A stretch of 64,000 bases of DNA, from positions 1 through 64,000 of the forward strand of contig JAKAKR010000016.1 of assembly GCA_021813435.1 (NCBI GenBank). The letters run 5' to 3'. Positions within the stretch are counted from its first letter, which is position 1; each line of letters opens with the position of its first letter. Under the pieces are notes generated by a model, which saw only the letters and a list, made by a program, of their open reading frames with translations, had not been told where the DNA came from and did no database searches. The DNA is from Nanobdellota archaeon (GTDB lineage Archaea > Nanobdellota > Nanobdellia > Woesearchaeales > UBA9642). A program made the translations under genes and the position numbers. Shown here one piece after another: positions 2,814-26,754 of this stretch.

Positions 2814-2864
2814 ACATCCTCCTGTAATTGTTCTCGTAATTAGTAGTAGTAATTGTTAGTAGTA

Positions 2865-3662
2865 TTATCCTCCCAGATATGCTTCCAGGACGCGCGTATT
2901 GTTTTGGATCTCGCGCGGCGTCCCGCGTGCAATCATGGTCCCTGCCTCAAGGACAAAGATCGTTCCTGCAAGCCCCATGACAAAATTCATATCGTGCTCG
3001 ATAATGATGATAGTCTCGCCACGCTCTTTCAATGATTTGATGATATCCATGATTTCCACACGCAGTTTGGGATTGACCCCTGCAACCGGTTCGTCAAGGA
3101 GCAGGATTTCGTGCGGTTTTGCAAGTGCGATTGCAAGATCGAGCAATTTGCGCTGACCATAACTCAGATCCGATGCAGGAGTGTCGAGCGGTTTTTCCAG
3201 ATGCACGAGCGATAGGATCTCCTGCATCCTGCGCGATTCCTCGCGTTTATGGTGGAAGAGTTTATCCCAGACACTTTTTGCAAGCGACTCATCCGTGCTA
3301 CTGAGCGCTATTGCAAGATGCTCTTTGATGGTCATATTCTTGAATAGTCGTACTTGCTGGAATGTCCGTGATATCCCATGTTTTGCGACCTCAAAATCCT
3401 TGCAGGTCGTAATGTCAATAGCATTGAGTATGATCTTTCCGTAATCAACAGGGATGAGGCTTGTTATTGCGTCAAAGAGTGTTGTCTTACCGCTTCCGTT
3501 CGGCCCGATGATTGCAGTGATTTCTCCGGCATGTATCTCCAGCGTGCAATGATCAAGCGCTTTTATCCCGCCAAAGTGTTTGCTCACATCAACTACCTTG
3601 AGGATTACACGCGGTGACGCAGGGCGAGGATTTTGTTTTGATGAAGTGTTTTGCGGTGTCAT
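2865..3662 (-). CDS. livG: Branched-chain amino acid ABC transporter ATP-binding protein LivG
   Basis: Second ATPase of the Liv importer. Walker A (GPNGSGKT) lies near residue 55, the signature is Leu-Ser-Tyr-Gly-Gln-Arg as usual for LivG, and Walker B reads LLLLDEPVAGVNP. The C-terminal extension ending near 'NTRVLEAYLGG' is the LivG-specific tail. The first ~20 residues (Ser/Pro/Lys-rich) are not part of the domain, so the start may lie further in. It is separated from livF by about 50 bases and from livM by about 53 bases. Confidence 0.93.
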   Translation of the reverse strand: MTPQNTSSKQNPRPASPRVILKVVDVSKHFGGIKALDHCTLEIHAGEITAIIGPNGSGKTTLFDAITSLIPVDYGKIILNAIDITTCKDFEVAKHGISRTFQQVRLFKNMTIKEHLAIALSSTDESLAKSVWDKLFHHKREESRRMQEILSLVHLEKPLDTPASDLSYGQRKLLDLAIALAKPHEILLLDEPVAGVNPKLRVEIMDIIKSLKERGETIIIIEHDMNFVMGLAGTIFVLEAGTMIARGTPREIQNNTRVLEAYLGG

Positions 3663-8825: not shown

Positions 8826-9389
8826 CTAATAATTTTTTAGTTGCTCGTAAACCGGTTGAAGTCCATCAAGTAACGGCTTGTATAATTCTTGAAGAAATGC
8901 GTCAGAGAGAAGCAGATTATGCTTATTGAGCACTTCTGATTTGATTGTGGCTATCGCATCTGTATTCACTGTAGTACGCTTGTCAAAATTCTCAAAAAGT
9001 AATCTTTGGTTGTAAGTCGATGCAAAAACAATCCACGAAAAGGTGTATTGATTATCGTTATAGGTGAACAATGCCTTTTTTCCAAAAATCTTCTTGAGGA
9101 TGAATGCCGAGAAGACATGAGAATCGGTTTGTGACGTTGACTTGTCATAATATTTGAGGAAAAGGCTTCCATTCAAACTCGTGCCATCCAATGCCGGGCT
9201 ATTAAACCCTGCGGCATAGAGGCCGTCAGGTACAGGAATATAACATTTTGCAGAAATATCCCGAAGAGGGATATCTAAATCTTGAATTTTTCCCGAAATA
9301 TCAAGGATAGCCGGTTTAGAGACCACTAATGCACCATTGGTATCAGTAGTCCACCCGGGTACTTGTTGTGTTGTGAGATCATCCGTCAT
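8826..9389 (-). CDS. Hypothetical protein
   Basis: A soluble 187-residue protein with no signal peptide or transmembrane segment and no recognised family. The middle is rich in aromatic residues and predicted strands; the C-terminal third is helical. A GGGGGT ribosome binding site lies five bases before the ATG. Its stop is only ten bases from the livK start, so it heads the livK transcription unit. It is divergent from the AbrB-PhoU regulator across a very AT-rich promoter region, which makes it a plausible target of that regulator (inference). Confidence 0.6.
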   Translation of the reverse strand: MTDDLTTQQVPGWTTDTNGALVVSKPAILDISGKIQDLDIPLRDISAKCYIPVPDGLYAAGFNSPALDGTSLNGSLFLKYYDKSTSQTDSHVFSAFILKKIFGKKALFTYNDNQYTFSWIVFASTYNQRLLFENFDKRTTVNTDAIATIKSEVLNKHNLLLSDAFLQELYKPLLDGLQPVYEQLKNY

Positions 9390-9399
9390 TTTTTACCCC

Positions 9400-9551
9400 C
9401 AAACGATAGTTGCGAGGTTGTTCCTCGGCAGTGGTAATAATAGAATGAGTGTTGAGAAATTATATATATTTAATCCTAATATTATATATATCTATATAAT
9501 CATATATATAAAAACGAAAAATTAATATACTTCTTCTGCGTTCTCTATACC
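9400..9551. promoter_or_regulatory. AT-rich divergent promoter region before AbrB-PhoU copy 1
   Basis: A run of TATATA-like steps fills about 9460-9530 between the divergent 8826-9389 gene and the AbrB-PhoU gene. A TATA-like element around 9520-9530 is placed about 25 bases before the ATG at 9552. A very similar AT-rich block precedes the second AbrB-PhoU copy at 28160-28240. No clear palindromic operator was found within the repeats. Confidence 0.45.
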
Positions 9552-10451
9552 ATGAAGCGCAAGATCATGCGACTCGGACCCTCAACACTCGTCGTCAGCC
9601 TGCCACATCAATGGGGAGTGCAGCAGGGAATAAAACCTGGACAAGAACTCGAGGTAGTGGAAAAAGAAGGATCATTAGTGCTCCAGAGCAATAAACAAGT
9701 GCGTTTAGCAAAGGAGATTACCATAACCATCACGGGTGAAAATAAAGACGATATTGAAGTACTACTCACCCACGCATACCGACAGGGATTCGAAAAAATA
9801 AGATTAAAAAATATGGACAAGACAATAGAAGAAAAAACAAGAAGGACCGTCACCACACTTCTCCTCGGATTTGAAACAACAACCAAAGAAAAAGATACTT
9901 GGATACTGGAAAGTATCGCGCTTCCCGCAGAAGAAAAATACGAAGTATTACTCAAAAGAAGCCTTTGGATCATCAAAGAGACAATACAGAACAGCATAGA
10001 ATTTGCAAGAACAGAACAAAAATCGAATATCACCGAATTGCGAGCAGAACAAGACAAATATCTCCTCTATTGCCAACGGGTACTGACGCTAAATTCTAAG
10101 CGTAACACAGTCATTGAATGGGAACTCATCACCTTTCTCAGACATATTGAACATGCAGCATACTACCTCTATCAAGAGCTTGAACGAAATTATGCGAAAG
10201 ATACTGCTATTATCTCACTTCTTGAACAACTCGGGGCATATTACGAACTGTACATGAACGCCTACACTAACAGAGACATCAATGCGATCCATGCCATCAA
10301 CAAATTAAAATCAGCATATCAATTTGGCGAATGTATAAAACAGTTAAAGAAAGGAAAAAATACGGTAATCCATGCACAGATAAAGGAAGTGTTTAGAATG
10401 ATCCAAATCGGAAGCAGCCCTATTTTCCGATTAATTTTAGAGAACGCTTGA
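9552..10451 (+). CDS. AbrB-domain PhoU-like regulator, copy 1
   Basis: Archaeal two-domain regulator. Residues 1-45 form a SpoVT/AbrB swapped-hairpin DNA-binding domain ('MKRKIMRLGPSTLVVSLP', 'GIKPGQELEV'), followed by a long helical PhoU-like part. Such proteins are annotated as phosphate uptake regulators, but no pst genes are nearby, so the ligand is unknown. Its 3' end overlaps the convergent kinase gene by 32 bases. The same arrangement recurs at 28255-31101, so the pair appears to be a duplicated module. The promoter is AT-rich and likely gives a leaderless transcript. Confidence 0.82.
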   Translation: MKRKIMRLGPSTLVVSLPHQWGVQQGIKPGQELEVVEKEGSLVLQSNKQVRLAKEITITITGENKDDIEVLLTHAYRQGFEKIRLKNMDKTIEEKTRRTVTTLLLGFETTTKEKDTWILESIALPAEEKYEVLLKRSLWIIKETIQNSIEFARTEQKSNITELRAEQDKYLLYCQRVLTLNSKRNTVIEWELITFLRHIEHAAYYLYQELERNYAKDTAIISLLEQLGAYYELYMNAYTNRDINAIHAINKLKSAYQFGECIKQLKKGKNTVIHAQIKEVFRMIQIGSSPIFRLILENA

Positions 10452-11931
10452 TAGACTGTTCTGTGTCATACATCTTCTTTTGTAGCTGTTCTTCACGCGC
10501 AACACTATCCTGATACGTTTTCTTGAAATCAGCGACCTTGCCGGTAAATTTTTTGATAGCCTCACGTACAACTTCGCTTCTCCCGGTGATCATCCAATTA
10601 TCATAATAGTTATAGTCGACATAATCAATCAGAGCGATATGATCAAAATCTTTGGGAACATATTTCTTTAATGTATCAAAATCTTTTGCGCCATCGCTCA
10701 GTGCATATGCCCGTGCAGCTTGATCAGGGAATACATACGCAAACGCCGCGCTTTTTCTATCGCCATTAAAGAAGTCAATGTATCCGTCAATTGCCTGTGT
10801 ATCAATAATCGTCTCATCAGTTGTTGCATGATTAATGAAATAGTTATGGACAATACCCCATCGACGACTCAAATCATTCGCTAATGTTAATTGAATCAGC
10901 TTCTCATTTTTGGCCCCGCTTTCCACTGCAAAAAATGTTGCAAGGCTGAGAAGCGGAAGCGCAATTGCGGTACGTAGACCATATCGTTTTATGCGGTTTG
11001 AAGATCTGCTCTCTTCGTACTGCTGATTCGCATGTTCCACTGCGGTCAATAATTCTGCGCCATCTTTCAAACGATCAGTATGATGATACAACGCGGAACG
11101 CAATAATTTTTTGAAATATTTCGGCATCCCGGAGGTTTTTTTATCAATTAACCTGTTCCATTTTTTTCGGGCATAATTCTCGTGTATGAATGTCTTTGCG
11201 TGTGTAGGGGTGTTGCCGAATTCTTCTTTAAACAATTTTTTCCCGGCAAGCATTTCATAGAGGATTGTTCCTGCAGAATACACATCTGACGCCATAATCG
11301 GCGCTTCGGAAAAATTTTCAGGAGCACGCGAATACAAATACCCCACATTATCGCGACCATGCGATCCGCCGGTCGCATTTCCAAAATCAGTTATTTTCAC
11401 AATCTTTTGGGTAGTGTACCCGATATTATCCTTTTTGAGGTCTCCATGTATGACCCCGATTTTTTGTTCAAGAGTATTATTGACAATGTCGCCTGATTGT
11501 CGCATAATATGCGTGTGAAGATCACGAAGCCCTGCAGCGATACCTTGAGTAATATGTAATATTTCTTTCGTGTTGACTGATCCCTCAGCGATATAATCAG
11601 ACAAGAATCGATCGACGTATTCCTCAGCGACAAACGGCGTTCCATCATCAGCGACATCGACATAATGGAATGCAAGATTAGTAAACGCGGTCGTATTACC
11701 ATAGAGACCTTCTTTTATCCAGATTTCTTTTTCAGAAAGGTTTCTTTGCTTCGATTGCTCATATGCAACGTCGGTTCTATTAAGAAATTTAAGTGCCCAA
11801 GTAGAATGATCGGAATTTCTCTTTGCCTTCCATACGTCTTTCCAAAATCCTGAATTGATATAGTTCTCTATGGTGAATCCGGAGGTGTGCGGCAATGATT
11901 TTATTTGTTTCAGAGGCAGTATATTACTCAT
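10420..11931 (-). CDS. Membrane-anchored Ser/Thr protein kinase, module 1
   Basis: Eukaryotic-type kinase domain at about residues 20-300 of 503. The ATP-binding Lys is in 'WALKF' (K48), the catalytic loop reads HGDLKKDN (162-169) and Asp-Phe-Gly is at 182-184. The glycine loop is weak. A single transmembrane helix (about 319-336) is followed by a ~165-residue probably extracellular domain of unknown fold. The start at 11931 is chosen because GGAGGTG lies just upstream; an in-frame ATG at 11961 lacks this. The upstream ribbon-helix-helix gene overlaps it by eight bases, so the two are coupled. Confidence 0.82.
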   Translation of the reverse strand: MSNILPLKQIKSLPHTSGFTIENYINSGFWKDVWKAKRNSDHSTWALKFLNRTDVAYEQSKQRNLSEKEIWIKEGLYGNTTAFTNLAFHYVDVADDGTPFVAEEYVDRFLSDYIAEGSVNTKEILHITQGIAAGLRDLHTHIMRQSGDIVNNTLEQKIGVIHGDLKKDNIGYTTQKIVKITDFGNATGGSHGRDNVGYLYSRAPENFSEAPIMASDVYSAGTILYEMLAGKKLFKEEFGNTPTHAKTFIHENYARKKWNRLIDKKTSGMPKYFKKLLRSALYHHTDRLKDGAELLTAVEHANQQYEESRSSNRIKRYGLRTAIALPLLSLATFFAVESGAKNEKLIQLTLANDLSRRWGIVHNYFINHATTDETIIDTQAIDGYIDFFNGDRKSAAFAYVFPDQAARAYALSDGAKDFDTLKKYVPKDFDHIALIDYVDYNYYDNWMITGRSEVVREAIKKFTGKVADFKKTYQDSVAREEQLQKKMYDTEQSIKRSLKLIGK

Positions 11932-12088
11932 GCAACTCACCTCCTCCTGTAGTTTTTGCATAGCGCAAGAATTTTTCTATTGCATATTCAATGACGTGGC
12001 TCTTGTTCCGAAAGAGCGGATTTTGTGATAGTGATTCGAGTCTCTCGTCAAGTGTTTCCTCGATCGAGATACTGATCTTTTTCTTCAT
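11924..12088 (-). CDS. Ribbon-helix-helix (CopG-like) small DNA-binding protein
   Basis: A 54-residue ORF. It starts with a basic beta strand (MKKKISISI), then 'EETLDERLESL' and 'FRNKSHVIEYAIEKFL', the pattern of ribbon-helix-helix repressors with the turn at Asn-Lys-Ser. It overlaps the kinase start by eight bases. Three copies of the hexamer/heptamer AAAGTAG or its complement lie just upstream around its TATA box, suggesting autorepression. It could be an antitoxin-like regulator, but no toxin is adjacent; the partner is a kinase. Confidence 0.7.
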   Translation of the reverse strand: MKKKISISIEETLDERLESLSQNPLFRNKSHVIEYAIEKFLRYAKTTGGGELHE

Positions 12089-12090
12089 AC

Positions 12091-12140
12091 AAAGTAGCAA
12101 GACGTCCTACTTTATAAAGTTTGTTATTTTTAGCTACTTT
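12091..12140. promoter_or_regulatory. Repeated AAAGTAG sites around the RHH-kinase promoter
   Basis: AAAGTAG (12091-12097) and its complement CTACTTT (12107-12113) form a perfect inverted repeat with a nine-base spacer. A third CTACTTT is at about 12133-12139. They flank a palindromic TATA element (ACTTTATAAAGT, 12110-12121). This placement fits operator sites for the ribbon-helix-helix protein encoded immediately downstream (inference). Confidence 0.5.
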
Positions 12141-12161
12141 TTAGTGATAACATTATAAAAC

Positions 12162-12185
12162 AGCGTTTTTAGCTCCTAAAAACGC
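12162..12185. repeat. Near-perfect inverted repeat upstream of DUF2207 gene
   Basis: GCGTTTTTAG is followed by a short loop and CTAAAAAACGC, giving a ten-pair stem with one extra A. It lies between the RHH promoter and the DUF2207 gene's TATA element (about 12216-12225). It could be an operator or a small hairpin; nothing decides between them. Confidence 0.4.
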
Positions 12186-12256
12186 AAAATTCAGGATATT
12201 GTTGTGTGTTAAGTAACCTTTTTAAAAGCATAAGTCAAGATAGCAAGAGGCGCAAT

Positions 12257-13897
12257 ATGAAAGAGAAGACCACAATCACGATTGTCGTTCTGATATTCAT
12301 CCTATTCGGTCTGATCAATACCTATTATACAATCTTTTCAGCACCATTCAGTTTCTCACAGGCAACCATAACTGCAGACGGCCCGCAGATTACTGAAACA
12401 TTGATTTATGTCCCTAACAAGGATTATCATACGCTTTACCGAAATTTTATAACTCCAATCCGAGAAAATTTCGAACAAGGAGACTCTATCCATGTGACAG
12501 CGGTCGCATGCAGCGGCGGGGTATCCTATACCCGAGATTTTGACGGCAACACACACATCCGGATCGCTCCTGGCGCAACCATGTCATTACAGTACACAGA
12601 AAATAACGAGTATGGATGCACGTATGGTGAAGATACAGGATTCAAGCAGGGAACGACCTATGCAATCACCAGCCAATACACGCTCCATCCTTCAACAGTA
12701 TTTTTAATCAATGGACAATATTATATCAAATTCGTCGCCTACTCATCAGAAAAGCACCCTCTCCTTTCAAAAAGTTCCACGCTACAAACATCAGCAAACA
12801 TTGTCGCCAAATCATTCTATCTCCCTGATGAGAACGTGATTGTGTATCTCCCTATCAACCCGCAAGACATGCCGTATGCAAGAATCATTGACGCAAAGGA
12901 TTTTGTGTATGAAAATAGTGTCAGAAATATCCTCGTGACACTCTTTTTCTCCCTCATTCCGGCAATCGTATGTTTTTTTGGCTGGTTCTTTTTCGGAAGA
13001 GAAAAAAGAGAAGAGGATCTCCCGCATGAGTTAAGTCAATACCCGCAAGAACGAAAGGCCTGGGAGGTTGTCGCCTACTTCCATCCGCCATTCGGAGAGT
13101 TGGATAAACAATTCATCCCGACCATGATCATGGATTTCTATAATAGAAAGATTATCGACGTTAAAGAGATTGATGGAGACACGTATATGAGTATCAACGA
13201 GCATCATAACCAAAAACTTGATGATGTGGAACAAAAATTCCTTGACTTCCTCAATGATATCTATGCCGATGCAAAAATCAGCGGCAACGCAAAGGGCACC
13301 TCCTTTAATATGAATGACGCCATTACCCATGCCGGCGCGCTTGAAAAAAAAGAACTGCAGACCCATTACAAGTTATTGCAAAAGCGCATTAAAGAGAAAA
13401 GTAAAGAATACATTGATTACAGAGGTAATTGGTTTGTATTCAGCCCGCTTGCAATCATCGTCCTACTCTACAATATCATGGGCGCGCATGCGATAACACT
13501 GCTCTACATTGTTTGTTTTATCACTATGGGAATTATCGCCCACAAATCCGCACTCTTCATCCGCTACAAAAAAGAGTATTATCCTGAATACCAGAAATGG
13601 CAGGGATTCAAGAATTATCTCAAAACAATGGACTCCATGAAGAAAGCCCCACCACAAGCAGTGGTCCTATGGAATCAATACCTCGTTTATGCCACTGCGC
13701 TTGGCGTGGAGAAAACAGTGATTAAAAAATTCCAGGAATGGAAGATTATTACACCAACGCAATCGCACATCTATATGGGGATCTATCACACCAGCTCAGC
13801 AACCGGCGCAGTCGGCGGAAACAGCGGAGGCGCAGGCGGAGGATTTGGCGGCGCAGCAGGTGGAGGCGTCGGCGGTGGTGGAGGCGGGGGAAGATAA
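12257..13897 (+). CDS. DUF2207 family membrane protein with glycine-rich tail
   Basis: Predicted membrane protein of 546 residues. An N-terminal signal-anchor helix (about residues 6-26) is followed by a beta-rich extracytoplasmic domain (30-215), a transmembrane helix near 222-245, a cytoplasmic domain and two further helices near 405-445. It ends in a long Gly/Ala-rich tail, the hallmark of DUF2207 proteins (PF09972). Function is unknown for the family. The start at 12257 is preferred: AGAGG lies six bases upstream and a TATA element about 35 bases upstream. An ATG at 12206 would precede that promoter. Confidence 0.75.
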   Translation: MKEKTTITIVVLIFILFGLINTYYTIFSAPFSFSQATITADGPQITETLIYVPNKDYHTLYRNFITPIRENFEQGDSIHVTAVACSGGVSYTRDFDGNTHIRIAPGATMSLQYTENNEYGCTYGEDTGFKQGTTYAITSQYTLHPSTVFLINGQYYIKFVAYSSEKHPLLSKSSTLQTSANIVAKSFYLPDENVIVYLPINPQDMPYARIIDAKDFVYENSVRNILVTLFFSLIPAIVCFFGWFFFGREKREEDLPHELSQYPQERKAWEVVAYFHPPFGELDKQFIPTMIMDFYNRKIIDVKEIDGDTYMSINEHHNQKLDDVEQKFLDFLNDIYADAKISGNAKGTSFNMNDAITHAGALEKKELQTHYKLLQKRIKEKSKEYIDYRGNWFVFSPLAIIVLLYNIMGAHAITLLYIVCFITMGIIAHKSALFIRYKKEYYPEYQKWQGFKNYLKTMDSMKKAPPQAVVLWNQYLVYATALGVEKTVIKKFQEWKIITPTQSHIYMGIYHTSSATGAVGGNSGGAGGGFGGAAGGGVGGGGGGGR

Positions 13898-16748: not shown

Positions 16749-17783
16749 TTAGTTTTTCTGCGCTTGACGCGCGAGCGCCTTCGAGTATGATTCACGATAC
16801 TGCATGCTTGCAAATATCATGTTTTCCATGAACTCGCGGTTATCATCGCCACGGACGACGATCAATGGATCTTTACGATTATAAAACGATTTTACTGCAC
16901 TATATACTGAGCCGTCCCAATCTGTTTTTTTGAGTTGGTCAGCTGCAACGAGCGGCGTCATCATATCCGGGGCAGTCATTTCATATTCGTACCGTTTATC
17001 CTTATGGAACATGATGATTGTCGCTTTTGAATAATCATTCTTGAAATTCTTTTCTTTGATCGCGGATGTTGCATATATCCCTTCGGGAATTGGGATGAGA
17101 AGGACGTCCTTGAGCGGTGTAAATAGCGGTTTCGTTGCAAGATATTCCTTTGTGAAACGCATTGCGTCTTTGATTGCCGGTCCAACACCTTTCACAATCT
17201 CAGGATTATGATGTTTTTGAGAGACATCTAATACGTATGTTATCATTTTTTTATACACATCCCCAGCAATATCAAGATTATCCAGCGAATAGGTATAATT
17301 ATTTACTAAAGAATTGAATTGTTCCTTTTCAGATTCGTTCAGCGGTGATTTTGATCTTATGTATTTACTGATTTTTCGTCCTAAACGTACGCCACTGTAT
17401 GCTGCTGCGATATCTGCGCCTAGTGTCATCATATCAGTGCCCACATCGCTTTTTGGAATAGTGAGATTTACGTATATACCGCTGATTGCTCCAAGTAAGG
17501 ATTCTTGCGTATTCACAAATTTTGATGGACTTAAGCCAGTATTTTTCTTATTCGCAGGATTATTGCCCTGCTTTGCTGCTTGCGTCTCATGATATAATTG
17601 TGTTTCTGTGCATGTATCATATGTATCACACGCAGTGTCATCACACTTATACGTGCTATGCATGACCGCGGTTATGGTATTGTTTATTTCGATTCTCGAA
17701 AGCAAATATCGATCATTTAAAAACCCTGCAATAGTTCCTGCAGTAAATGCTGTACCGATACTTACCAGTTGTTCAAGATTCAT
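16749..17783 (-). CDS. Hypothetical membrane protein, last gene of the ubiquitin-like operon
   Basis: A 344-residue protein of unknown family. An N-terminal hydrophobic stretch ('VSIGTAFTAGTIAGFL') is followed by a short Cys-containing region with four cysteines near residues 45-57. Two hydrophobic segments follow near 95-150 ending in 'GVRLGRKISKYIRS', then a long soluble C-terminal domain. The start at 17783 has GGTGA upstream and overlaps the preceding gene by 11 bases. The neighbour at 17773-18654 has the same layout, so the two are probably distant paralogues acting together. Confidence 0.6.
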   Translation of the reverse strand: MNLEQLVSIGTAFTAGTIAGFLNDRYLLSRIEINNTITAVMHSTYKCDDTACDTYDTCTETQLYHETQAAKQGNNPANKKNTGLSPSKFVNTQESLLGAISGIYVNLTIPKSDVGTDMMTLGADIAAAYSGVRLGRKISKYIRSKSPLNESEKEQFNSLVNNYTYSLDNLDIAGDVYKKMITYVLDVSQKHHNPEIVKGVGPAIKDAMRFTKEYLATKPLFTPLKDVLLIPIPEGIYATSAIKEKNFKNDYSKATIIMFHKDKRYEYEMTAPDMMTPLVAADQLKKTDWDGSVYSAVKSFYNRKDPLIVVRGDDNREFMENMIFASMQYRESYSKALARQAQKN

Positions 17784-18654
17784 AGGAATCACCTTTTTTG
17801 TAGTATTGACTAATGGTTTGCGCAATATGGCGCTTGATGGGTATGGAATTGAATTCACAATGCGCGTCTGCTTTGAGGATGATGAGTTGTGTTTCTGGAG
17901 TGAATCGTTTGATGAGTGATGGATACCCTTCAATAAACTTCTCTGCGCGTGCAACAATTGCGGTCGATGATACATCCTTGGTTGGATTGAGTGTATAGAG
18001 CATATCGCGATGGATAAGATAGAGCTGCGGATTTTCAGGTTTTTCCGATGCATACGTAAGTGTCGCAAACCCTTTTTCATCCACTAATTTCTGTGCACCT
18101 TGCCGGAATAATGATTGCGCTTCTGCAAGATGTATCGCATCAATAAGTCTAGTGTAGAGCTTCACATTTTTATGATGTCGAGTAATAGTATCTGCGTATA
18201 GTGTTGCTTCAGCGCTGGGTTGTACCGCTGATTCAGAGATATCACTATTGACAATATAGTCAAGTTTCTTCTCGAACTGTTTTTTTTCGTGTTTGGATAC
18301 TGTTGCATGATTGCGCAGGGTCTTACTTACTGCGCGTCCAATACGCATACTTGCAAGATAGATTGCCGTGTATCCAAAGCCATTCGCGGCAAGGCTTATC
18401 AGGGTCTCGCTCGGCGCAAATACGACGCCGGCAATTCCTGCGTGAATCGATGTGTAATAATCCAGATTTGGACTTTCTTCTATGACCAACGTACAGTCCT
18501 TAACCTTTTTATCATATTCTTGCTTCGTACACGATTCCTTGATAAGGATCGGTACGTATTCTGCATTAAATATGTCTGTGCGATCTTTCACGATCCCGTG
18601 CGTTATCCCTGCAGCGATGGTTGCAGAAATGAGTAACATATCGGTGAGTTCCAT
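17773..18654 (-). CDS. Hypothetical membrane protein, paralogue of the next gene
   Basis: A 293-residue protein. It has an N-terminal hydrophobic helix ('MLLISATIAAGITHGI'), two Cys residues near 42 and 53, a central hydrophobic pair (about 68-105) ending in 'SMRIGRAVSKTLRNHA', and a soluble C-terminal domain. The order of features matches the following gene. No known family was recognised. It begins 43 bases after the frameshifted member of the cysteine family and probably belongs to the same operon. Confidence 0.6.
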   Translation of the reverse strand: MELTDMLLISATIAAGITHGIVKDRTDIFNAEYVPILIKESCTKQEYDKKVKDCTLVIEESPNLDYYTSIHAGIAGVVFAPSETLISLAANGFGYTAIYLASMRIGRAVSKTLRNHATVSKHEKKQFEKKLDYIVNSDISESAVQPSAEATLYADTITRHHKNVKLYTRLIDAIHLAEAQSLFRQGAQKLVDEKGFATLTYASEKPENPQLYLIHRDMLYTLNPTKDVSSTAIVARAEKFIEGYPSLIKRFTPETQLIILKADAHCEFNSIPIKRHIAQTISQYYKKGDSYES

Positions 18655-18696: not shown

Positions 18697-19001
18697 TTAT
18701 TCGACATCAATCGCGCTAAGCAGCGTATTCAGGTTTACTGCAAGCTTCTTGTAATCTTTTTCAAGATATGATTGTTCTATTGCAATCCAATCCTGCGCGT
18801 AATATTTTACGTACACAGAATGTGTCTTGCAATCGATCGCTTCAACCTTTTACATGCACTATACACTTCGATTGCACGCTTCTCAAGCATCCCCAACTCA
18901 TCTGACGTATATTCAAGTGACTTTTTCAGGAACGGGAATTGTCCATTGAGCCAATCCCTCAAATCATACCGATGATGGGAGGTTATTTGAAATTCATTCA
19001 T
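18697..19001 (-). pseudogene. Frameshifted fifth member of the operon's cysteine family
   Basis: The first frame (start 19001) encodes 'DLRDWLNGQFPFLKK' and 'LEKRAIEVYSACKRL', matching the helical domain of the four neighbours, then stops at 18807. The next frame continues the homology: an 'IDC' segment at the position of the family's invariant Cys and a C-terminal helix, ending at 18697. Adding one A to the AAAA run near 18865-18870 joins the frames. It lacks the SH3-like N-terminus and the 'HHGT' end. It could be a decayed gene, a real frameshift or a sequencing error. Its start overlaps the preceding gene by eight bases. Confidence 0.6.
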
Positions 19002-19896
19002 TTTTGCCCCCAATAGGATTTACATATGCCATAGTTGCATCAAAATCATTATTTTTTTTCACAGCGTCGTATCTGGCGGGTTTACTCTCATTTCTTATAT
19101 CAAAATTATCATACCTATCAAAAAGGTCATATCTGTCGAAATGTTCACGCCTGCCAAATAATCCAGAGTAATAGCTTTGATTCGCATATGCTGTACGACA
19201 ACCGTCTACAGGGATTACTCGATCTATCTGTTCTATAAACGTTGTTTCTGGACCCTTGAATTTTTTAACAACGTGTTTCAAATATTTAACATCCTGCTTA
19301 GTGAGTCTGGTTAATTCCCCAATCAATATATAATTATTTTTTCCATCAAATTTTTGTCTTTCATTAAATACAAGATATCTTGTTGAAGTTCCATTTTCAT
19401 CTCCTATTCTATACACAAAAGCGTTAAGATTTCCAAATGAAAACCTGCCGTAACCTGCCCCATCCAAATATCGTCCTGCTTCGGTGTGATGTTTATCTCC
19501 TCCTAAACTTATGGATAATTTTTCTAATGAGCTCACAAAAGCCTCTAAACTTCTTGCTCTATTATTTGGATTGCCTGTGGTTCCAAATCCCTCCTCAAAT
19601 TTATTCCAACCGTAGCGTAATCCTGCAGTAGCGCAAGCTTCCGTGGATAAGACTCCATGATTGACTGCGCCTAATGCTGCTTGATATATCTCTTCCTTAC
19701 GGCTCTCTAAATCTTGATATACTCTTCTTTTTTTTGCGTATGTTTTAAGGTCAGGGAATTGTTCTCTAATCCATAGTGCAAATTCTTCTCTAACATTAAA
19801 TACGGGCTTGAACTCTTTACTCGTTGAATGCATTTCTTCAATCGGGGACTCTCCCAGTAGTAAATCATCTAGTTTATCGTTTATCATTTTAATCAT
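18994..19896 (-). CDS. Cysteine-family paralogue D with extra C-terminal domain
   Basis: About 300 residues. The first third lacks the SH3-like domain and begins directly with the family's helical module: 'EFKPVFNVREEFALW', 'QFPDLKTYAKK' and the invariant Cys88 in 'TEACATAG'. After a 'KHH' motif it has an extra ~150-residue domain not seen in its paralogues, with short Phe-Asp-Arg-Tyr repeats near the C-terminus. The domain 'YLVFNERQKFDGKNNYILIGELTRL' region (split here by its YLVF and ILIGEL parts) looks beta-rich. The start is uncertain: ATGs at 19896 and 19887 are both possible. It overlaps the preceding gene by a few bases. Confidence 0.6.
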   Translation of the reverse strand: MIKMINDKLDDLLLGESPIEEMHSTSKEFKPVFNVREEFALWIREQFPDLKTYAKKRRVYQDLESRKEEIYQAALGAVNHGVLSTEACATAGLRYGWNKFEEGFGTTGNPNNRARSLEAFVSSLEKLSISLGGDKHHTEAGRYLDGAGYGRFSFGNLNAFVYRIGDENGTSTRYLVFNERQKFDGKNNYILIGELTRLTKQDVKYLKHVVKKFKGPETTFIEQIDRVIPVDGCRTAYANQSYYSGLFGRREHFDRYDLFDRYDNFDIRNESKPARYDAVKKNNDFDATMAYVNPIGGKNE

Positions 19897-20746
19897 CCAT
19901 TTTCTTTGTTCCGTGATGTTTTTTATAGCCATTGCTTGAAATACTCTCTAGGTTCAATGAGAGGAATTCAATAAAGCTGACAAATTTTTCTAATCTAGCA
20001 GCAAACACACCAGAATATGTTGCAAAATCAGAGTAGTACAGGCCATCCGGTTTTTGCCCGTTAAATGTGCAATAAACAGTTCTGAAATCAATTAATGCAC
20101 AGCCTCTAAGAGTTTTTGTCCCGTGTTCATAAGCCATTTTTGCTCCATTCATCACTTCGATTTTTCTTTTTTCTAAAGAGTCGTATTCTTTTTCTTTTTT
20201 AGCGTAATCTTTTAATTCAGGGAATTCCTGCCTGACCCATACTGCATATTCTTCTCGTGGATTGAATTCTGGTTTGAATGGCTCGCTCTTTTTTATAGAG
20301 TCATCTGTTGTTTTGGAAATCTCATTACCATAATTCTTAATTCTTAACATGATCTTTTTATACTGCTCTGCAAGATTTAGCTTAATTAAAACCTTAGGAA
20401 CAACGACTTCTTCGATACTCATTGGTTCTTTTTTTGCATCTTTCTGTGTTGTAGGTTCCTCTAGTTGCAACATTTTTTCTAATTCTGAGTCTTTTTCTTT
20501 TTGCCTTTTCTTTTCTACTTCTTCAACTTCTTTGCTTGTACATAATTCATCGGGATGAACACTCCATGTTGTACCATTCGATAGTCTTACGTATATTTCT
20601 TTTTCGCTTACACTTTTGACAATCCCTTTCGATCCTAAAGGAACATCGCTAACACTACCACCATAATAATACCCCGATTTTCCATTTCCATGTTCTATTC
20701 CAAGATTTCTTCTGATGACAACATCCTGGCCTTTTTCGTAATTCAA
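19889..20746 (-). CDS. SH3-like/cysteine-family paralogue C
   Basis: 285 residues. Residues 1-68 form a beta-rich, SH3-like module ('GQDVVIRRNL', 'GSKGIVKSV', 'WSVHPDEL'). A charged coiled-coil linker (70-155) follows, then a helical module with 'FKPEFNPREEYAVW' and invariant Cys216 in 'RGCALIDF', and a C-terminal 'YKKHHGT' motif. No named family was recognised. It starts with TTG, overlapping the E1 stop by four bases with GGTGA upstream, so translation is coupled to the E1. A 207-base stretch is identical to paralogue B. The conserved Cys and His residues next to E1 and JAMM genes make an E2- or E3-like role possible but unproven. Confidence 0.65.
   Translation of the reverse strand: MNYEKGQDVVIRRNLGIEHGNGKSGYYYGGSVSDVPLGSKGIVKSVSEKEIYVRLSNGTTWSVHPDELCTSKEVEEVEKKRQKEKDSELEKMLQLEEPTTQKDAKKEPMSIEEVVVPKVLIKLNLAEQYKKIMLRIKNYGNEISKTTDDSIKKSEPFKPEFNPREEYAVWVRQEFPELKDYAKKEKEYDSLEKRKIEVMNGAKMAYEHGTKTLRGCALIDFRTVYCTFNGQKPDGLYYSDFATYSGVFAARLEKFVSFIEFLSLNLESISSNGYKKHHGTKKMDD
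20261..20467. repeat. 207-base direct repeat, copy 1 (in paralogue C)
   Basis: This stretch appears identical to 22535-22741, an offset of 2274 bases. It encodes the linker and the start of the helical module. The flanking parts of the two genes have diverged, which points to recent gene conversion or to selection on this linker. Confidence 0.85.
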
Positions 20747-22155
20747 CTTCCATCACCCTTTTCTCCAATTGATGCATATTTCTCTTTCAAATCACACAAC
20801 CACTCATGGATATCGCTACGAGAACAATCGCATGGATTGCTTGCACCCACTAATCCTCCCCTAGTCGAAACATTAGCATCATATTTGAGGATTCTCGAGA
20901 CTGGAGCGCCATACCCTTTATCAATCACTTTCAATGCTTCCCCAATCATCATTCCCCCAATAACTTCATTAGTCATAATTACACTAGGATCCGGCTCATC
21001 AGTACATTTATTGCCCTGCAGCGATATCCCGAGAGCTTTTTCAACACCCATTTTGCAATCAAGGCAAGCACTTTGCCCCGGTTCATATACGACAACCTGT
21101 CCCGAATGCGCATTTGTGCCGCCGCTGACTAGAGGAATACTATAATGCACTGCAAAATAATTTATGATGGCCCTTACTGAGAATTTATCAACACAATCAA
21201 ATATAAGGTCTGGCTTCTTTTGAGAGAAATATGTTGAATTCTCATCTAATTTTCCCACCAATCCCTCAACATGTATATTTGGATTAATTTTCTTAATTTT
21301 TTCTGCTAATGCAGCGGACTTTGCTTTTCCGACAGCATCATAAAATAGTATTTGCCTGTTGAGGTTATGATCTTCTACCTCATCATAATCTAAAATATCA
21401 ATATAACCAAATCCTTCTAATGCTGCTCCAAGAGCAACAAAATTACCCAGTGCACCTGCGCCAACTATCAGGATTCTTTTTTGTGATATATCTTCATAAG
21501 GTTGCGCGTCAAATTCTTTTTCAGCATTAAATCTTCTTTCAACAGTCGCATTGTAAACTAATTTTTTAATCGGTTTTTCTCCATCGGCAAGAGGCATTAT
21601 ATGCTTTCGGGTCTCTTCAGTGATCATTCCTCCGAATAGTTCACTACTAAAATTTCCTTGAGTCTCGCCAGCGTATTCTGATAGATTTGCGCCATTGACG
21701 TCTTCTCCGGGTTTTACATAATATAGTGCTCCTCCAGTTTTATCTGTTGATGCTGATATAACACTAATCCCTTCAGATGAAGCATAGTTCATCACTCTAT
21801 CTTTGAGATCAGGAGTATTTGTCAAATCTAAAATCAGGTCAGTTTTCTTATCGAGTGACCTCTCGAGGGAATCATCAATTTTGGTCTGCTTGACTTTTAT
21901 TCCAGAATTTATTTGTTGCAGTATATTCTCTATTGATTGGTTCTCATAGTTTTCAGATAAGGAAGTTAAGAATCCCTTATTTACACCATCATCATAAATT
22001 TCTATATTTCCTATCCCTAATGCTGCTAATGATGCAGCAGTAAACTGGGATAATGGACCACTACCGATGATTGCAACCTTTGCATCAGTTAATCTATTCT
22101 GATCCCAATTCTTAATCCGTTGTTGTCTATCATATCGAATATTGTCGTTTGTCAT
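20743..22155 (-). CDS. Tandem two-domain E1-like (ThiF/MoeB/Uba1-type) activating enzyme
   Basis: 470 residues with two ThiF/HesA folds. Domain 1 (about 1-200) has a nucleotide-loop-like 'IIGSGPLSQF' and looks degenerate. Domain 2 (about 205-430) is complete: GAGALG (232-237), 'DYDEVEDHNLNRQ' with the Arg finger (255-267), 'GKAKS', zinc ligands Cys364/Cys367 with Cys442/Cys444, and a candidate catalytic Cys384. This inactive-active order resembles the adenylation domains of eukaryotic Uba1. No ubiquitin-fold domain is present. It should adenylate the C-terminal glycine of a ubiquitin-like protein. It sits between paralogues B and C and near JAMM and ATPase genes in one operon. Confidence 0.85.
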   Translation of the reverse strand: MTNDNIRYDRQQRIKNWDQNRLTDAKVAIIGSGPLSQFTAASLAALGIGNIEIYDDGVNKGFLTSLSENYENQSIENILQQINSGIKVKQTKIDDSLERSLDKKTDLILDLTNTPDLKDRVMNYASSEGISVISASTDKTGGALYYVKPGEDVNGANLSEYAGETQGNFSSELFGGMITEETRKHIMPLADGEKPIKKLVYNATVERRFNAEKEFDAQPYEDISQKRILIVGAGALGNFVALGAALEGFGYIDILDYDEVEDHNLNRQILFYDAVGKAKSAALAEKIKKINPNIHVEGLVGKLDENSTYFSQKKPDLIFDCVDKFSVRAIINYFAVHYSIPLVSGGTNAHSGQVVVYEPGQSACLDCKMGVEKALGISLQGNKCTDEPDPSVIMTNEVIGGMMIGEALKVIDKGYGAPVSRILKYDANVSTRGGLVGASNPCDCSRSDIHEWLCDLKEKYASIGEKGDGS

Positions 22156-22156
22156 T

Positions 22157-23020
22157 TTATTTTACCTTTACTGTTCCATGATGTTTTTTATAACCTCTGC
22201 TTGAGACACTCTCTAAGTTGAGTGAGAGAAACTCAATAAAGCTGACAAATTTTTCTAACCTCTTGGCAAAAGTTCCAGAATCTGTTGCAAAGCTGGGGTA
22301 GCACAGATCTCTAGGATCGCCACCTGTTTTTCCATGAAGTACGTCATAGATATTCTTGAAATCAGTTAACGCGCAACCTGTGGCGGTTTTCATAGCATGA
22401 TCATACGCTTTTTTTGCACCATCCATAACCTCTGTTTTTCTCTTTTTCAAGGAATCGTATTCTTTTTCTTTTTCAGCATATTCTTTTAATTCAGGGAATT
22501 CCTGCCTAATCCATACTGCATATTCTTCTCTAACATTGAATTCTGGTTTGAATGGCTCGCTCTTTTTTATAGAGTCATCTGTTGTTTTGGAAATCTCATT
22601 ACCATAATTCTTAATTCTTAACATGATCTTTTTATACTGCTCTGCAAGATTTAGCTTAATTAAAACCTTAGGAACAACGACTTCTTCGATACTCATTGGT
22701 TCTTTTTTTGCATCTTTCTGTGTTGTAGGTTCCTCTAGTTGTAGTATTTCTTCTAATTGTGAATTCTTCGCTTCTTGTCTCTTCTTTTCTGCTTCTTCTG
22801 TTTCTTTGCTTGTACGTAATTCGTTAGGATGGACATTCCACCTGTTACCATTTGATAATCTTACATCTATTTTTTTCTCACTCACGTATTCGATAGTTCC
22901 TTTCGATCCGAGAGGAACATTGCTAACGCTACCACCATAATAATACCCCGATTTTCCATTTCCGTGTTCTATTCCAAGATTTCTTCTGATGACAACATCC
23001 TGACCTTTTTCGTAATTCAT
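22157..23020 (-). CDS. SH3-like/cysteine-family paralogue B
   Basis: 287 residues from the ATG at 23020, chosen to match its paralogues' 'MNYEKGQDVV' start. The SH3-like module (1-68), charged linker, helical module with Cys216 in 'TGCALTDF', and C-terminal 'YKKHHGT' follow the same order as paralogue C. The two proteins are identical over residues 108-162. It begins three bases after the stop of paralogue A and ends one base before the E1 start, so the three are translated from one message. Function unknown; see paralogue C for the proposed role. Confidence 0.65.
   Translation of the reverse strand: MNYEKGQDVVIRRNLGIEHGNGKSGYYYGGSVSNVPLGSKGTIEYVSEKKIDVRLSNGNRWNVHPNELRTSKETEEAEKKRQEAKNSQLEEILQLEEPTTQKDAKKEPMSIEEVVVPKVLIKLNLAEQYKKIMLRIKNYGNEISKTTDDSIKKSEPFKPEFNVREEYAVWIRQEFPELKEYAEKEKEYDSLKKRKTEVMDGAKKAYDHAMKTATGCALTDFKNIYDVLHGKTGGDPRDLCYPSFATDSGTFAKRLEKFVSFIEFLSLNLESVSSRGYKKHHGTVKVK
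22535..22741. repeat. 207-base direct repeat, copy 2 (in paralogue B)
   Basis: Identical to 20261-20467. Outside this block the genes differ at many positions, except for a second near-identical stretch of about 100 bases encoding the SH3-like start (around 20650-20746 and 22925-23020). Confidence 0.85.
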
Positions 23021-23025
23021 TTTAA

Positions 23026-23823
23026 TCAATCCATTATCGCGGTTCCATAGTGTCTCTCTTCTCTTCCATTGTTAAGATTATAGGATACATAAATGATATA
23101 CTTGAGAAAGTCATTTGTAGATCGCGTAAAATAATTTGTTTTACTTGATTCTACTAATGCGTTATACTTATCCGCAAAATTTCTCTTTACACAGTCCGTT
23201 GTTGTATCCATTGCATGTCTATATGCTTTTTTTGCTCCCCCGAGTACTTCTTCCTTTCTTTCAATTAATGCGATATACTTTTCCCCTCTTCTTGCATAGG
23301 TATCTAGTTCTGGAAATTCTTTTTTTAGCCAAACCGCATATTCTTCTCGTGGATTGAATTCTGGTTTGAACGGATTTCCTGCGTTCGATGCCACTTCTGT
23401 TCTTGATTTTCTAAAATAATTCAGGATTTTACTTACAATTCCTGTGTGTGTTTCCTTTTGATATTCGGTTCTGTTGCCCGTGTTTTCTTTTATGGCCTCT
23501 CTGTCTGTTATAATCTCTTCTTCTGTTTTAGGTTCTGCTACTTGTAGTATCTCTTCTAATTTTGAATCTATTATTTTTTGCCTTTTCTTTTCTGCTTCTT
23601 CATGCTCCTTGTTTGTACGTAATTCATCGGGATGAAGAGACCATTCTGTGCCATTCTGCAATTTTACATATATTGATGTTTTACTTACGCTTTCAATGAC
23701 TCCCTTTGATCCTAGAGGAACCTTTCTAATACTACCCCCATAATAATACTGAGATTTTTCTCTTCCATTTGCTATTCCAAGATTCCTTCTGATGACAACA
23801 TCTTGGCCTTCTTCGTAATCCAT
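23026..23823 (-). CDS. SH3-like/cysteine-family paralogue A
   Basis: 265 residues from the ATG at 23823, which aligns with its paralogues. An upstream GTG at 23874 would add 17 unrelated residues. It has the SH3-like module ('GQDVVIRRNLGIA', 'WSLHPDEL'), a linker that differs entirely from B and C, the helical module 'FKPEFNPREEYAVW', invariant Cys211 in 'TDCVKRNF', and a variant 'RHYGT' end. The linker divergence beside conserved ends suggests that the termini carry the function. It follows the JAMM gene after a short gap. Confidence 0.65.
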   Translation of the reverse strand: MDYEEGQDVVIRRNLGIANGREKSQYYYGGSIRKVPLGSKGVIESVSKTSIYVKLQNGTEWSLHPDELRTNKEHEEAEKKRQKIIDSKLEEILQVAEPKTEEEIITDREAIKENTGNRTEYQKETHTGIVSKILNYFRKSRTEVASNAGNPFKPEFNPREEYAVWLKKEFPELDTYARRGEKYIALIERKEEVLGGAKKAYRHAMDTTTDCVKRNFADKYNALVESSKTNYFTRSTNDFLKYIIYVSYNLNNGREERHYGTAIMD

Positions 23824-23880
23824 GTTATCATTTCTCCCAAGGTCTTTTCTTATTTCTGCTGCTGAGATACTCACTCACGG

Positions 23881-24807
23881 TCAGTATTTATCATCTTCCT
23901 GATTAGGACTAAAACCAAAATCAGGTTTAGTCAATGTCCCGGTGGTTTTCTTTTCTTCAAAAACTGAAGGCAAAAAATAATCTATAAGCTTCCGCGGTCT
24001 TTCAACAATTACCTTTTCATGGATTTCAGCTTTCAACTGATCATTATCTAATTTATATTCTTCTCCATCAAATATCTTGTAATTGACACGTTCACTTACA
24101 TCTTCAACATTCGCACAATTAAGGCATAAATCTCTAGTTGCAACTTCACAATACGGCACTCTTTTACTAAGCCATCTATGATGATTAACCACAAAACTAT
24201 ACGCAAACCCCACTCTTTTCTCTTCTAAAATCTGCAATTCTTGTGCTATGAGTTCAGGATTTTCTGTTTTTAATCCTATCCTGTAAGTGATTGATTGGTT
24301 TTCGGGATCCCAGAATATCAAATTGTTTCCCTCAACTCTGCTTTGCAAACCTCTGTACACCTTTTCTTTAGGGGATATGATATAATTGGAAGGAGAGATC
24401 TCATTTAACAAGACCATCTGATTATTTACATCAATTTTAGAATGAAATGTTTCATATCTTCCATGACTATGCCACCAGCCAACGATTTTTCTTCCCTGCT
24501 GATCCAACTCTTTACCTGCTTTAATGACATGTTCAGCACTTAATACGTACTCTCCCCGGTATACTTCTTGTTCACGAGGAAGAAACGCGTCTGTAGCTAC
24601 ACGATCCCTGGCATCTTTTGCCTTAGTGAGAAACCCTCCTATCTCAACATTCTTATTTCTGCTAAATTGCAAAACAAGCGCTGCATACCTGAATGCTTTA
24701 TCGTATGCAAACCGCGATATGTGCAATTCGTCAATACCAAAATTTTTGATCGGTACTTGATGTTCTACGGGTTCATCTCCTTGAAGGAGTGCATCTATGT
24801 TTGTCAT
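23881..24807 (-). CDS. JAMM/MPN+ metalloprotease (candidate deubiquitinase-like isopeptidase)
   Basis: 308 residues with a complete JAMM zinc site: Glu55 in 'VEIGGFL', His113-Ser-His115, seven residues, Ser123 and Asp126 (HxH-x7-S-x2-D). JAMM enzymes such as Rpn11 and archaeal HvJAMM1 remove ubiquitin-like proteins or trim their C-terminal tails. The C-terminal half adds a Cys-x(n)-Cys-x-x-Cys cluster near residues 195-215 that could bind zinc. A strong GGAGGA site precedes the ATG. It lies directly after the candidate ubiquitin-like gene, so a natural job is to expose that protein's Gly-Gly end and to reverse conjugation (inference). Confidence 0.88.
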   Translation of the reverse strand: MTNIDALLQGDEPVEHQVPIKNFGIDELHISRFAYDKAFRYAALVLQFSRNKNVEIGGFLTKAKDARDRVATDAFLPREQEVYRGEYVLSAEHVIKAGKELDQQGRKIVGWWHSHGRYETFHSKIDVNNQMVLLNEISPSNYIISPKEKVYRGLQSRVEGNNLIFWDPENQSITYRIGLKTENPELIAQELQILEEKRVGFAYSFVVNHHRWLSKRVPYCEVATRDLCLNCANVEDVSERVNYKIFDGEEYKLDNDQLKAEIHEKVIVERPRKLIDYFLPSVFEEKKTTGTLTKPDFGFSPNQEDDKY

Positions 24808-24839: not shown

Positions 24840-25277
24840 TTAAATTCTATAGCCGCCTTGCTGTACCGCAGAGACTTCTATCTCGAGTTGCTGATAATTG
24901 ATTTTTTTACCAGCAACGTCCTTGTTTGCTTTGATAATGTAATCAGATACTTTATCAGTCAGTTTTGCATTCTTGCCATTAATGACGATAACACTACCTG
25001 CTGCTCCAAGCTCTTTTTTCAAGCTTGCAGCTGTTGCAGCCTCACTATCTTTTACTTGCGAATCTACAATATAGGCTAACACATCCCTAACACTCTTATC
25101 TACATAGCTTGAAGGAAGCCTTCTCATTAAAGCAGATTCAGAATCGGCCAAACCAGGTCTTGCAGTTGCAATCAAGGGCGTTGTTTCCTCTTGAGAACCT
25201 AAGACTTTCCTTTCTTGTTCTTTTATACTTTTGTATACACTATTTTCTAATCCGTCTTTTTTTTGTAATCCTGTCAT
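24840..25277 (-). CDS. Candidate ubiquitin-like modifier precursor
   Basis: 145 residues. The N-terminal ~85 residues are charged and partly helical. Residues 95-142 could form a compact beta-grasp: strand 'SVIVINGKNAKL', helix 'DKVSDYIIKANKD', strand 'QQLEIEVSAV', ending in Gly141-Gly142 followed by Tyr-Arg-Ile. A Gly-Gly with a short tail is the classic precursor form cut by a protease before E1 activation. The domain is shorter than most beta-grasp folds, so this call rests heavily on the adjacent JAMM, E1 and ATPase genes. GGAGGA lies seven bases upstream of the ATG. Confidence 0.55.
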   Translation of the reverse strand: MTGLQKKDGLENSVYKSIKEQERKVLGSQEETTPLIATARPGLADSESALMRRLPSSYVDKSVRDVLAYIVDSQVKDSEAATAASLKKELGAAGSVIVINGKNAKLTDKVSDYIIKANKDVAGKKINYQQLEIEVSAVQQGGYRI

Positions 25278-25287
25278 TTTATTCCTC

Positions 25288-26754
25288 CTAATTTACATTT
25301 CTCTGTAAATTAATATATCCATGTCTAAACATCTCTTCGTATTGACTGGCTTTTTCTCCAAATACATCTTTCCAGTCGTCTTTTACCAGAGTTTGAGTCA
25401 TTTGTGTTGTCTCATTCAATTCATCTTTGAAAGCACTATAGAGATCATCTTTACATATCCCTTTCTTACCATTTGCAATTTCCCTTTTTATCGCATAACC
25501 ACAGGCTCTTGCAACCATCCCTTCAATCATAGCACCGCTGATGAGATTCTTATATCCGAATTTTCCTAGGCATTGACCATCGGAGCTCATCACCCGATAT
25601 GCCATACTGTCATCTGAGAATATTTCATCAAGAATAGGTGATATAAAATCCCGTACTGATGTAAATGCGCCTTGCAAAGGCTTGTTTTTAAAATAAATAT
25701 CAAATATTTCATTGCAGCCTTTTTTGTTTGGTCGAGGAATTCTGATTTTTCTATCCACTCTACCATCTCTTAAAATCGCAGGATCAAGTATATCTTCCCT
25801 ATTAGTGGCAAGAATTGTTATGACATTATCAGTTGTTGACATACCATCTATTTCTGAAAGCCATTGTGGAACAATAGAATCATACACATCAGTAGATATT
25901 CCTGTTCCCCTCTTTTTTGCAATAGCTTCTGCTTCATCAACAAATACAACTGTAGGTGCTTTAGTTTCCCTCGAATTTTCCCTTGCTGCAGCATAAATAT
26001 TTCTTATATTCAATTCTGAGTTTCCAACATACTTATCTAGAATCTCGGGTCCTTTAACACTTATAAAGTGTGCATTTCCATTATTTGCAAGAACCCCAAG
26101 ATTATATGCAATAGATTTTGCGAGTTTCGTCTTACCACAGCCTGGCGGCCCAAATAATAAAATACCTTTCGCGGGTTTTTTGCCGTAGCGCTCATAGATC
26201 TTGCTGTGAGTTATTGGATATTCTATTTCCTCTTTGATAACAGAAATAACATCTTCTAAACCCCCAATGGTATTCCAAGGAGCTTTCTCTACTTCTTCAA
26301 GCATGTATTTTGTTTTTTTCTTATCAAAACGCTGAAGCGCAATGTATCCACCCTCATCGAGAAGAACTTCATCACCAACTTTTACAGTTCCGTTCATTGA
26401 ATTGTAAACAATGTGCGGCTTTCCATCTTTGATGACTTTTAGTCTGCCATCTTGGATTTCTTCAACAGACACTACTTGACCGGTCGGTGTAGGAAATTCA
26501 GATATACCCATTACTGCTGAAGTTTTTGGGTTCAATATTACTCTTGATCCTCTCGTGATAGATGTTTTTTCGAATTTCTCAGGCACTTTTGCTATTTCAT
26601 AAATCCCCTGATGATCTATTGCAATATGTGTTGTTTTAGTGCCTGAATCCAATACTGTTCCCGTCATATAAGGCGGCTGTTGAATTCGTTCTAATTCATC
26701 TTTAAGTAAAAGTATTTCTTTTTCCGCTTCCTCTAATTTTTGTTTATCATTCAT
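25288..26754 (-). CDS. ARC/Mpa-type AAA ATPase with tandem OB domains
   Basis: 488 residues from the ATG at 26754 (GGTGAGG nine bases upstream). A short coiled coil (about 3-27) leads into 'PPYMTGTVLD' and two OB folds (about 30-90 and 92-145), then an AAA module. Walker A GPPGCGKT is at 202-209, pore loop Tyr-Val-Gly near 242, Walker B 'VVFVDEAEA' near 269, and Arg fingers in 'LRDGRVDR'. The C-terminal part ('SGAMIEGMVARA', 'DDWKDVFGEKA') matches Mpa/ARC proteasomal ATPases rather than PAN, which has one OB domain. It lacks a C-terminal HbYX or Gln-Tyr-Leu docking motif, ending Arg-Asn-Val-Asn. It probably unfolds modified proteins or remodels complexes. Confidence 0.85.
   Translation of the reverse strand: MNDKQKLEEAEKEILLLKDELERIQQPPYMTGTVLDSGTKTTHIAIDHQGIYEIAKVPEKFEKTSITRGSRVILNPKTSAVMGISEFPTPTGQVVSVEEIQDGRLKVIKDGKPHIVYNSMNGTVKVGDEVLLDEGGYIALQRFDKKKTKYMLEEVEKAPWNTIGGLEDVISVIKEEIEYPITHSKIYERYGKKPAKGILLFGPPGCGKTKLAKSIAYNLGVLANNGNAHFISVKGPEILDKYVGNSELNIRNIYAAARENSRETKAPTVVFVDEAEAIAKKRGTGISTDVYDSIVPQWLSEIDGMSTTDNVITILATNREDILDPAILRDGRVDRKIRIPRPNKKGCNEIFDIYFKNKPLQGAFTSVRDFISPILDEIFSDDSMAYRVMSSDGQCLGKFGYKNLISGAMIEGMVARACGYAIKREIANGKKGICKDDLYSAFKDELNETTQMTQTLVKDDWKDVFGEKASQYEEMFRHGYINLQRNVN

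Follow-up and report, generated by a model that had tools for sequence, protein, structure and literature searches.

The window analysed here is a stretch of 64,000 nucleotides from a Nanobdellota archaeon of the order Woesearchaeales (assembly GCA_021813435.1, contig JAKAKR010000016.1, positions 1 to 64,000). On its minus strand, at 25288–26754, lies a gene for an ARC-clan AAA+ unfoldase comprising a short N-terminal coil, tandem OB domains, an AAA module and an ARC-type insert in the small subdomain. The gene encodes 488 amino acids from an ATG, or 493 from an alternative GTG start at 26769; the plus strand across the same interval is full of stops and non-coding. By sequence, the AAA motifs are intact, including Walker A (GPPGCGKT), Walker B (VFVDEA), a KYVG pore loop and an arginine region, RDGR.

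Ten base pairs after the ATPase stop begins a gene for a putative ubiquitin-like modifier of 145 amino acids (24840–25277, on the minus strand like all genes of the cassette). The protein has a disordered-looking N-terminal extension and ends in LEIEVSAVQQGG-YRI (...VSAVQQGGYRI). Next comes a JAB/JAMM metalloprotease of 308 amino acids (23881–24807; Pfam Prok-JAB 3.5e-7, desampylase 6e-6), whose H-x-H-x7-S-x2-D motif is intact (HSHGRYETFHSKID) and whose predicted role is the processing or removal of the modifier. It is followed by two SH3-like-domain paralogues of 282 and 290 amino acids (23026–23874 and 22157–23029), an E1-like enzyme of 470 amino acids (20743–22155; Pfam ThiF 2.3e-61) with two ThiF modules, one with an intact GxGxxG, a third SH3-like paralogue of 285 amino acids (19889–20746) and related genes. 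The name SH3-like was assigned by eye and has no library match; the N-terminal domain of the first paralogue recurs in the SH3/X438 fusion proteins of two relatives discussed below, G411 and G008 (E about 3e-7). Of the related genes, one encodes a 312-residue protein (18994–19932) that shares a helical domain with the C-termini of the SH3-like paralogues (1.4e-22) and the other a 68-residue protein with a TTG start (18807–19013) that by eye is like the product of L211:6630-6956, located beside another such cassette. The GC content of the window is lowest over the cassette, at 0.366 (20–24 kb) and 0.385 (24–28 kb) versus 0.40–0.47 elsewhere. Directly downstream of the cassette, at 16749–18654, two adjacent genes encode related-looking proteins.

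The ATPase belongs to the ARC/Mpa clan and lies far from PAN and Cdc48, as a sequence-only reading of this DNA had proposed; profile scores, trees, Foldseek and VIA-align agree on this point. Its best NCBIfam match is TIGR03689 (pup_AAA), at 378 bits over profile positions 23–506 of 512, with PAN (221 bits) and CDC48 (218 bits) as runners-up. The curated TIGR03689 equivalog cut-off of 504.75 is missed by 126 bits and is passed by none of the 371 genomes in our phylum sample; against the PAN profile the protein reaches 221 of the 500 bits needed and so stays below that cut-off too. Residues of about 363–404 align with the insert of bacterial ARCs, where PAN has a gap, and the region 'SGAMIEGMV...DDWKDVF' aligns with 'SGAMIQNIV...DDWARIS' of actinobacterial ARC. 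PAN was rejected as an identity on the profile score, the two OB domains, the tree and the presence of a separate PAN gene in the genome, and Cdc48 on the single AAA module and the tree.

Structure prediction gives the same picture. An AF2 model built from 28 sequences (mean pLDDT 84.8) comprises an N-terminal helix (residues 3–25), two five-strand groups (30–85 and 94–143) and the AAA module, and shows in model form the tandem OB domains ahead of the AAA module that had been read from the sequence. The insert region is modelled as a helix (367–378) and two strands (384–390 and 395–400). Mpa chains account for all of the first 30 PDB matches in Foldseek, and the top VIA-align match is Mpa 5kwa (Z 32.4, 428 residues aligned, rmsd 6.5). 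These Mpa alignments cover model residues 27–488, up to the C-terminus. Because model residue 27 corresponds to Mpa residue 97, the N-terminal coil of Mpa is longer than this one by about 70 residues; Mpa binds Pup through its coil (PMC8755798).

Homologues in genome contigs were found with an alignment scan; a single-sequence scan gave nothing. The set comprises five archaeal proteins: that of the window, two from the same order (G008 and G045), one from the same class (G394) and one from Nanoarchaeota DeMMO1_8 (L050, also G411). They group as a single clade within the ARC clan (support 92 in the AAA-domain tree and 91/86 in the full-length tree), and the split between the ARC clan and PAN has a support of 100/100 in the full-length tree and 99 in the AAA-domain tree. 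In the full-length tree the archaeal clade is joined first by ARC-like proteins of large viral contigs (99/97) and then by ARCs from Armatimonadota, Bipolaricaulota and Verrucomicrobiota (96/88), whose tails have no GQYL either; the AAA-only tree places the viral ARC-like group outside. Since the branches are long, the relative order of the neighbours deserves less confidence than the placement within ARC. By the full-length tree, the archaeal ARCs are a separate branch, closer to the viral-contig proteins and the tail-less bacterial ARCs than to actinobacterial ARC. The match to actinobacterial Mpa/ARC first proposed is too narrow a description, and a recent transfer from Actinobacteria is not favoured, since the archaeal branch lies outside that of actinobacterial ARC.

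The viral ARC-like ATPases are encoded on contigs of about 60–608 kb (L130, L131, L134, L137 and L139–L143) and form a separate branch within the ARC clan. Searches with phmmer of the genes beside the GQYL-less ARCs from Armatimonadota, Bipolaricaulota and Verrucomicrobiota (L065, L087 and L111) detected neither a Pup ligase nor an E1, JAMM or modifier gene. Within the archaea sampled the ATPase is rare: it occurs in 3 of 145 relatives, 4 of 371 genomes of the phylum sample and 4 of 378 of the class sample, these samples overlapping. It is absent from same-genus genomes, and one of these, G001, has neither the ATPase nor the modifier.

In bacteria, ARC-type ATPases have been described as partners of Pup. 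None of the genes scanned around the window ATPase has a Pup_ligase match in Pfam, and the gene context supports well a coupling of the ATPase to the ubiquitin-like modifier. The two genes adjoin in three genomes, separated by 10 bp (window), 1 bp (DeMMO1_8) and 5 bp (G045), and the ATPases of the three genomes with an adjacent modifier share 42–53% identity with that of the window. The G045 operon runs ATPase, modifier, X438, JAMM, E1 and SH3-like protein, and in DeMMO1_8 the JAMM, the E1 and an SH3-like/X438 fusion are on another contig than the ATPase and modifier. The C-terminal pair of the modifier is Gly-Gly in the window, DeMMO1_8 and G008, and Gly-Ala in G045. Profile searches of Pfam, NCBIfam and PDB gave no credible match to the window modifier, its single-sequence AF2 model failed (mean pLDDT 35.5), and hhalign to a five-sequence ThiS/MoaD profile (with E. 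coli ThiS, identical to 1f0z, and E. coli MoaD among its sequences) was collinear and non-significant (E 0.076). The 145-residue protein is probably a Gly-Gly ubiquitin-like modifier with a putative β-grasp fold.

The remaining partners recur as well. E1s of the window type are found in 24 of the 145 relatives and in all three ATPase carriers among them (P about 0.004 by counting, kinship ignored). Those closest to the window E1 come from G411 (514 bits), G008 (420 bits) and G045 (279 bits), all ATPase-bearing, followed by that of G070, a genome without the ATPase; by eye, the candidate catalytic cysteine, in NKCTDEPDPSVIMTN, is also kept in G411, G008 and G045. A family that we call X438, with a conserved proline and cysteine ('HPF...C'), is present in the same three genomes. 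It has no credible Pfam, NCBIfam or PDB profile match and is possibly a divergent E2; no E2-like gene of this type was found in the window genome. X438 genes between modifier and JAMM genes lie at L010:6339-7655, L211:294-1604, L212:3316-4614, L213:12203-13837 and L216:5096-6454.

The C-terminus of the window ATPase, NLQRNVN, ends Arg-Asn-Val-Asn without HbYX, as had been read from the sequence, and the four homologues likewise lack the motif. The tails in the five genomes are RNVN, RKSG, SIMR, QEVK and KHGH, so that an HbYX or GQYL end occurs in none of the five, and no member falls inside PAN. Among bacterial ARCs, complete proteins at proteasome-gene loci nearly all end in GQYL, GHYL or a similar aromatic motif. 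The GQYL-type end is missing in ARCs of Corynebacterium, Actinotignum and Nesterenkonia, and no 20S gene was found near those ARCs. For Corynebacterium glutamicum, which has no proteasome, ARC has been proposed to unfold pupylated ferritin (PMC8223512).

A second type of unfoldase accompanies the modifier in G008. There the ARC and modifier genes are on different contigs, and the modifier orthologue (...EIEVASVQRGGYRRGG...) lies not behind the ARC but 5 bp behind a gene for a ClpX-like unfoldase (contig C68, L264: unfoldase 1932–3086, modifier 1465–1926), with an SH3/X438 fusion and the start of a JAMM gene downstream of the modifier. ClpX docks ClpP through its IGF loop. The G008 protein scores 296 bits to ClpX and has a GYVG pore loop, and shows no IGF-type loop and no zinc-finger cysteines. 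Two unrelated unfoldases beside the same modifier, both without their docking element, provide the strongest argument for a tag-and-unfold system that is not protease-coupled in the usual way, with the ClpX-like case known from one genome.

The fifth archaeal ARC has other neighbours. In G394 (contig C6, L015) the ARC gene (9233–10744) is followed by a Dop/PafA homologue (10734–12420; TIGR03688, 275 bits, split over two frames), a 62-residue Pup-like protein (12407–12595) and a second PafA/Dop gene (12577–13602) truncated by the contig end. Part of the first PafA/Dop gene recurs at the contig end, so the frame break may be an artefact of the assembly edge. The 62-residue protein ends in IEDLLGEIDKVVGKSNLSREYKQTGGQ (GGQ), which gives it a Pup-like look, and is unmatched by Pup profiles. 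The locus is an apparent pupylation operon in a DPANN archaeon. Pup_ligase (PF03136) homologues are present in 6 of 200 genomes of the order to which G394 belongs (G394 itself and, at L252–L257, G509, G518, G574, G604 and G496). That the archaeal ARC branch also appears to serve a Pup operon suggests that unfoldases and tags may have changed partners in the course of evolution.

We lean, by a modest degree, towards a model in which DPANN archaea pair a hexameric ARC-clan AAA+ unfoldase with a ubiquitin-like modifier in the place of Pup, and in which the unfolded product is probably released. The JAMM would trim the modifier behind Gly-Gly, removing YRI in the window, and the double-ThiF E1 would adenylate it before its attachment to targets, a step in which the relatives would use an E2-like partner and the window organism possibly none. 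The ATPase would use its short coil and OB ring to bind the tagged protein, possibly starting from the loose N-terminal extension of the modifier; threading by Mpa begins at the N-terminus of Pup (PMC8755798). The KYVG pore loops would then thread and unfold the tagged protein, and the JAMM would recover the modifier. With the HbYX tail gone, the unfolded product would probably be released in a segregase or remodelling mode, not handed to the 20S by standard docking. We infer that the modifier is a conjugated β-grasp protein, that the ATPase recognizes it and that the outcome is protease-independent.

The original proposal of a modifier-directed unfoldase working without the 20S core survives in its first half, given the adjacent ubiquitin-like gene with E1 and JAMM in several diverged genomes. 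Its second half is not established: the genome encodes 20S α and β subunits, so that a window organism without 20S had to be rejected, together with a separate PAN ending in KMFG and a Cdc48 ending in NYFG, both Hb-(Y/F)-X ends. An alternative is that the modifier-directed ATPase delivers substrates to the host 20S, by way of a β-grasp hairpin, of rings shared with PAN or Cdc48, or of a transient contact that needs no HbYX; this would amount to an archaeal ubiquitin–proteasome-like route. Genes for 20S α and β are present in all four ATPase-bearing genomes examined (the window genome, G008, G045 and G394), and G394 has Cdc48 and ARC with no PAN match. Mpa contacts the 20S α ring also via a β-grasp hairpin of its small-domain insert (PMC9599533), the type of insert that the archaeal proteins retain, so loss of HbYX alone does not exclude contact with the 20S. 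Nor does such a tail prove uncoupling, since the insert is kept and C-terminally extended Mpa could still drive degradation by an open-gate 20S (PMC9599533). Against delivery stand the tail motif missing throughout the archaeal clade, the Mpa hairpin residues ANGDK, which the alignment shows are not kept in the archaeal proteins, and the missing docking loop of the ClpX-like partner in G008. On this evidence we regard delivery to the 20S as unlikely, though the strongest of the alternatives.

More doubtful still is the possibility that the operon belongs to a ThiS/MoaD-like pathway that does not conjugate, such as a sulfur-carrier pathway, and that the ATPase is a general chaperone, adjacent by chance or co-regulation. 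E1s of this class do resemble ThiF/MoeB, the C-terminal pattern of the window modifier (VIVINGK..., LEIEVSAVQQGG) is ThiS-like by eye and the window genome yielded no E2. However, such a pathway fits poorly with ATPase–modifier adjacency in three genomes with diverged sequences, a fourth genome where a ClpX-like unfoldase takes that position, intact JAMM proteases and, in several relatives, E2-like genes whose cysteine is conserved. A defence-like or mobile cassette, in which tagging and unfolding disable foreign (for example, viral) protein assemblies, is the least probable reading, for although the patchy distribution, the lower GC at 20–28 kb, the repeated paralogues, the ARC-like ATPases of very large viral contigs as nearest outsiders and a 6A-MBL anti-phage E1 among weak NCBIfam matches would suit it, no effector or mobile-element gene was found beside the cassette and patchiness fits loss too.

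Returning to release of the unfolded product as the favoured outcome, we tentatively extend it, with somewhat less confidence than we place in the window model itself, to a DPANN tag-and-unfold system that would pair a ubiquitin-like modifier with an interchangeable AAA+ partner, either of ARC type or resembling ClpX, that has lost its protease-docking element, for remodelling and not degradation; the same ARC branch would serve a Pup operon, unfoldase and tag having been swapped. An ARC found with a ubiquitin-like set here and with Pup-type genes in a related archaeon offers a testable swap between two prokaryotic protein-tagging logics, and suggests that unfoldases may be re-plumbed to different protein tags, possibly without destroying the targets. 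In eukaryotes, Cdc48 exemplifies ubiquitin-like tagging that ends in unfolding, and the cassette would be a concrete case of such an ending, instead of proteolysis, for comparison. With four core genes the system is small and could be reconstituted.

There is a fair chance that this is a distinct tag-and-unfold system. Among open-access papers, none was found that reports pupylation or ARC for a DPANN archaeon or that pairs ARC with a ubiquitin-like cassette, and a text search of a JAB/E1 neighbourhood survey for AAA and ClpX found neither (PMC1779556). The window protein shares with ARC/Mpa (TIGR03689) the N-terminal coil, tandem OB domains, AAA module, small-subdomain insert and an Ar-Hb-Gly pore loop, but has a shorter coil, lacks GQYL and sits on a separate archaeal branch, and its gene partners are a ubiquitin-like modifier, E1 and JAMM whereas those of bacterial ARC/Mpa are Pup, PafA and Dop. 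Like Corynebacterium ARC, for which tag-directed unfolding without degradation has been proposed (PMC8223512), it has no GQYL end; there, however, the tag is Pup and the organism lacks the 20S that the window organism possesses. With PAN it has in common an AAA module with OB ring and coil, and common ancestry, but PAN has a single OB domain, no small-domain insert and an Hb-(Y/F)-X end. The SAMP/UbaA/HvJAMM and Caldiarchaeum Ub–E1–E2–Rpn11 systems likewise combine an E1-like enzyme, a JAMM isopeptidase and a small Gly-Gly modifier, from which the putative window modifier differs in having no detectable sequence similarity, in its N-terminal extension and in being co-encoded with its own unfoldase.
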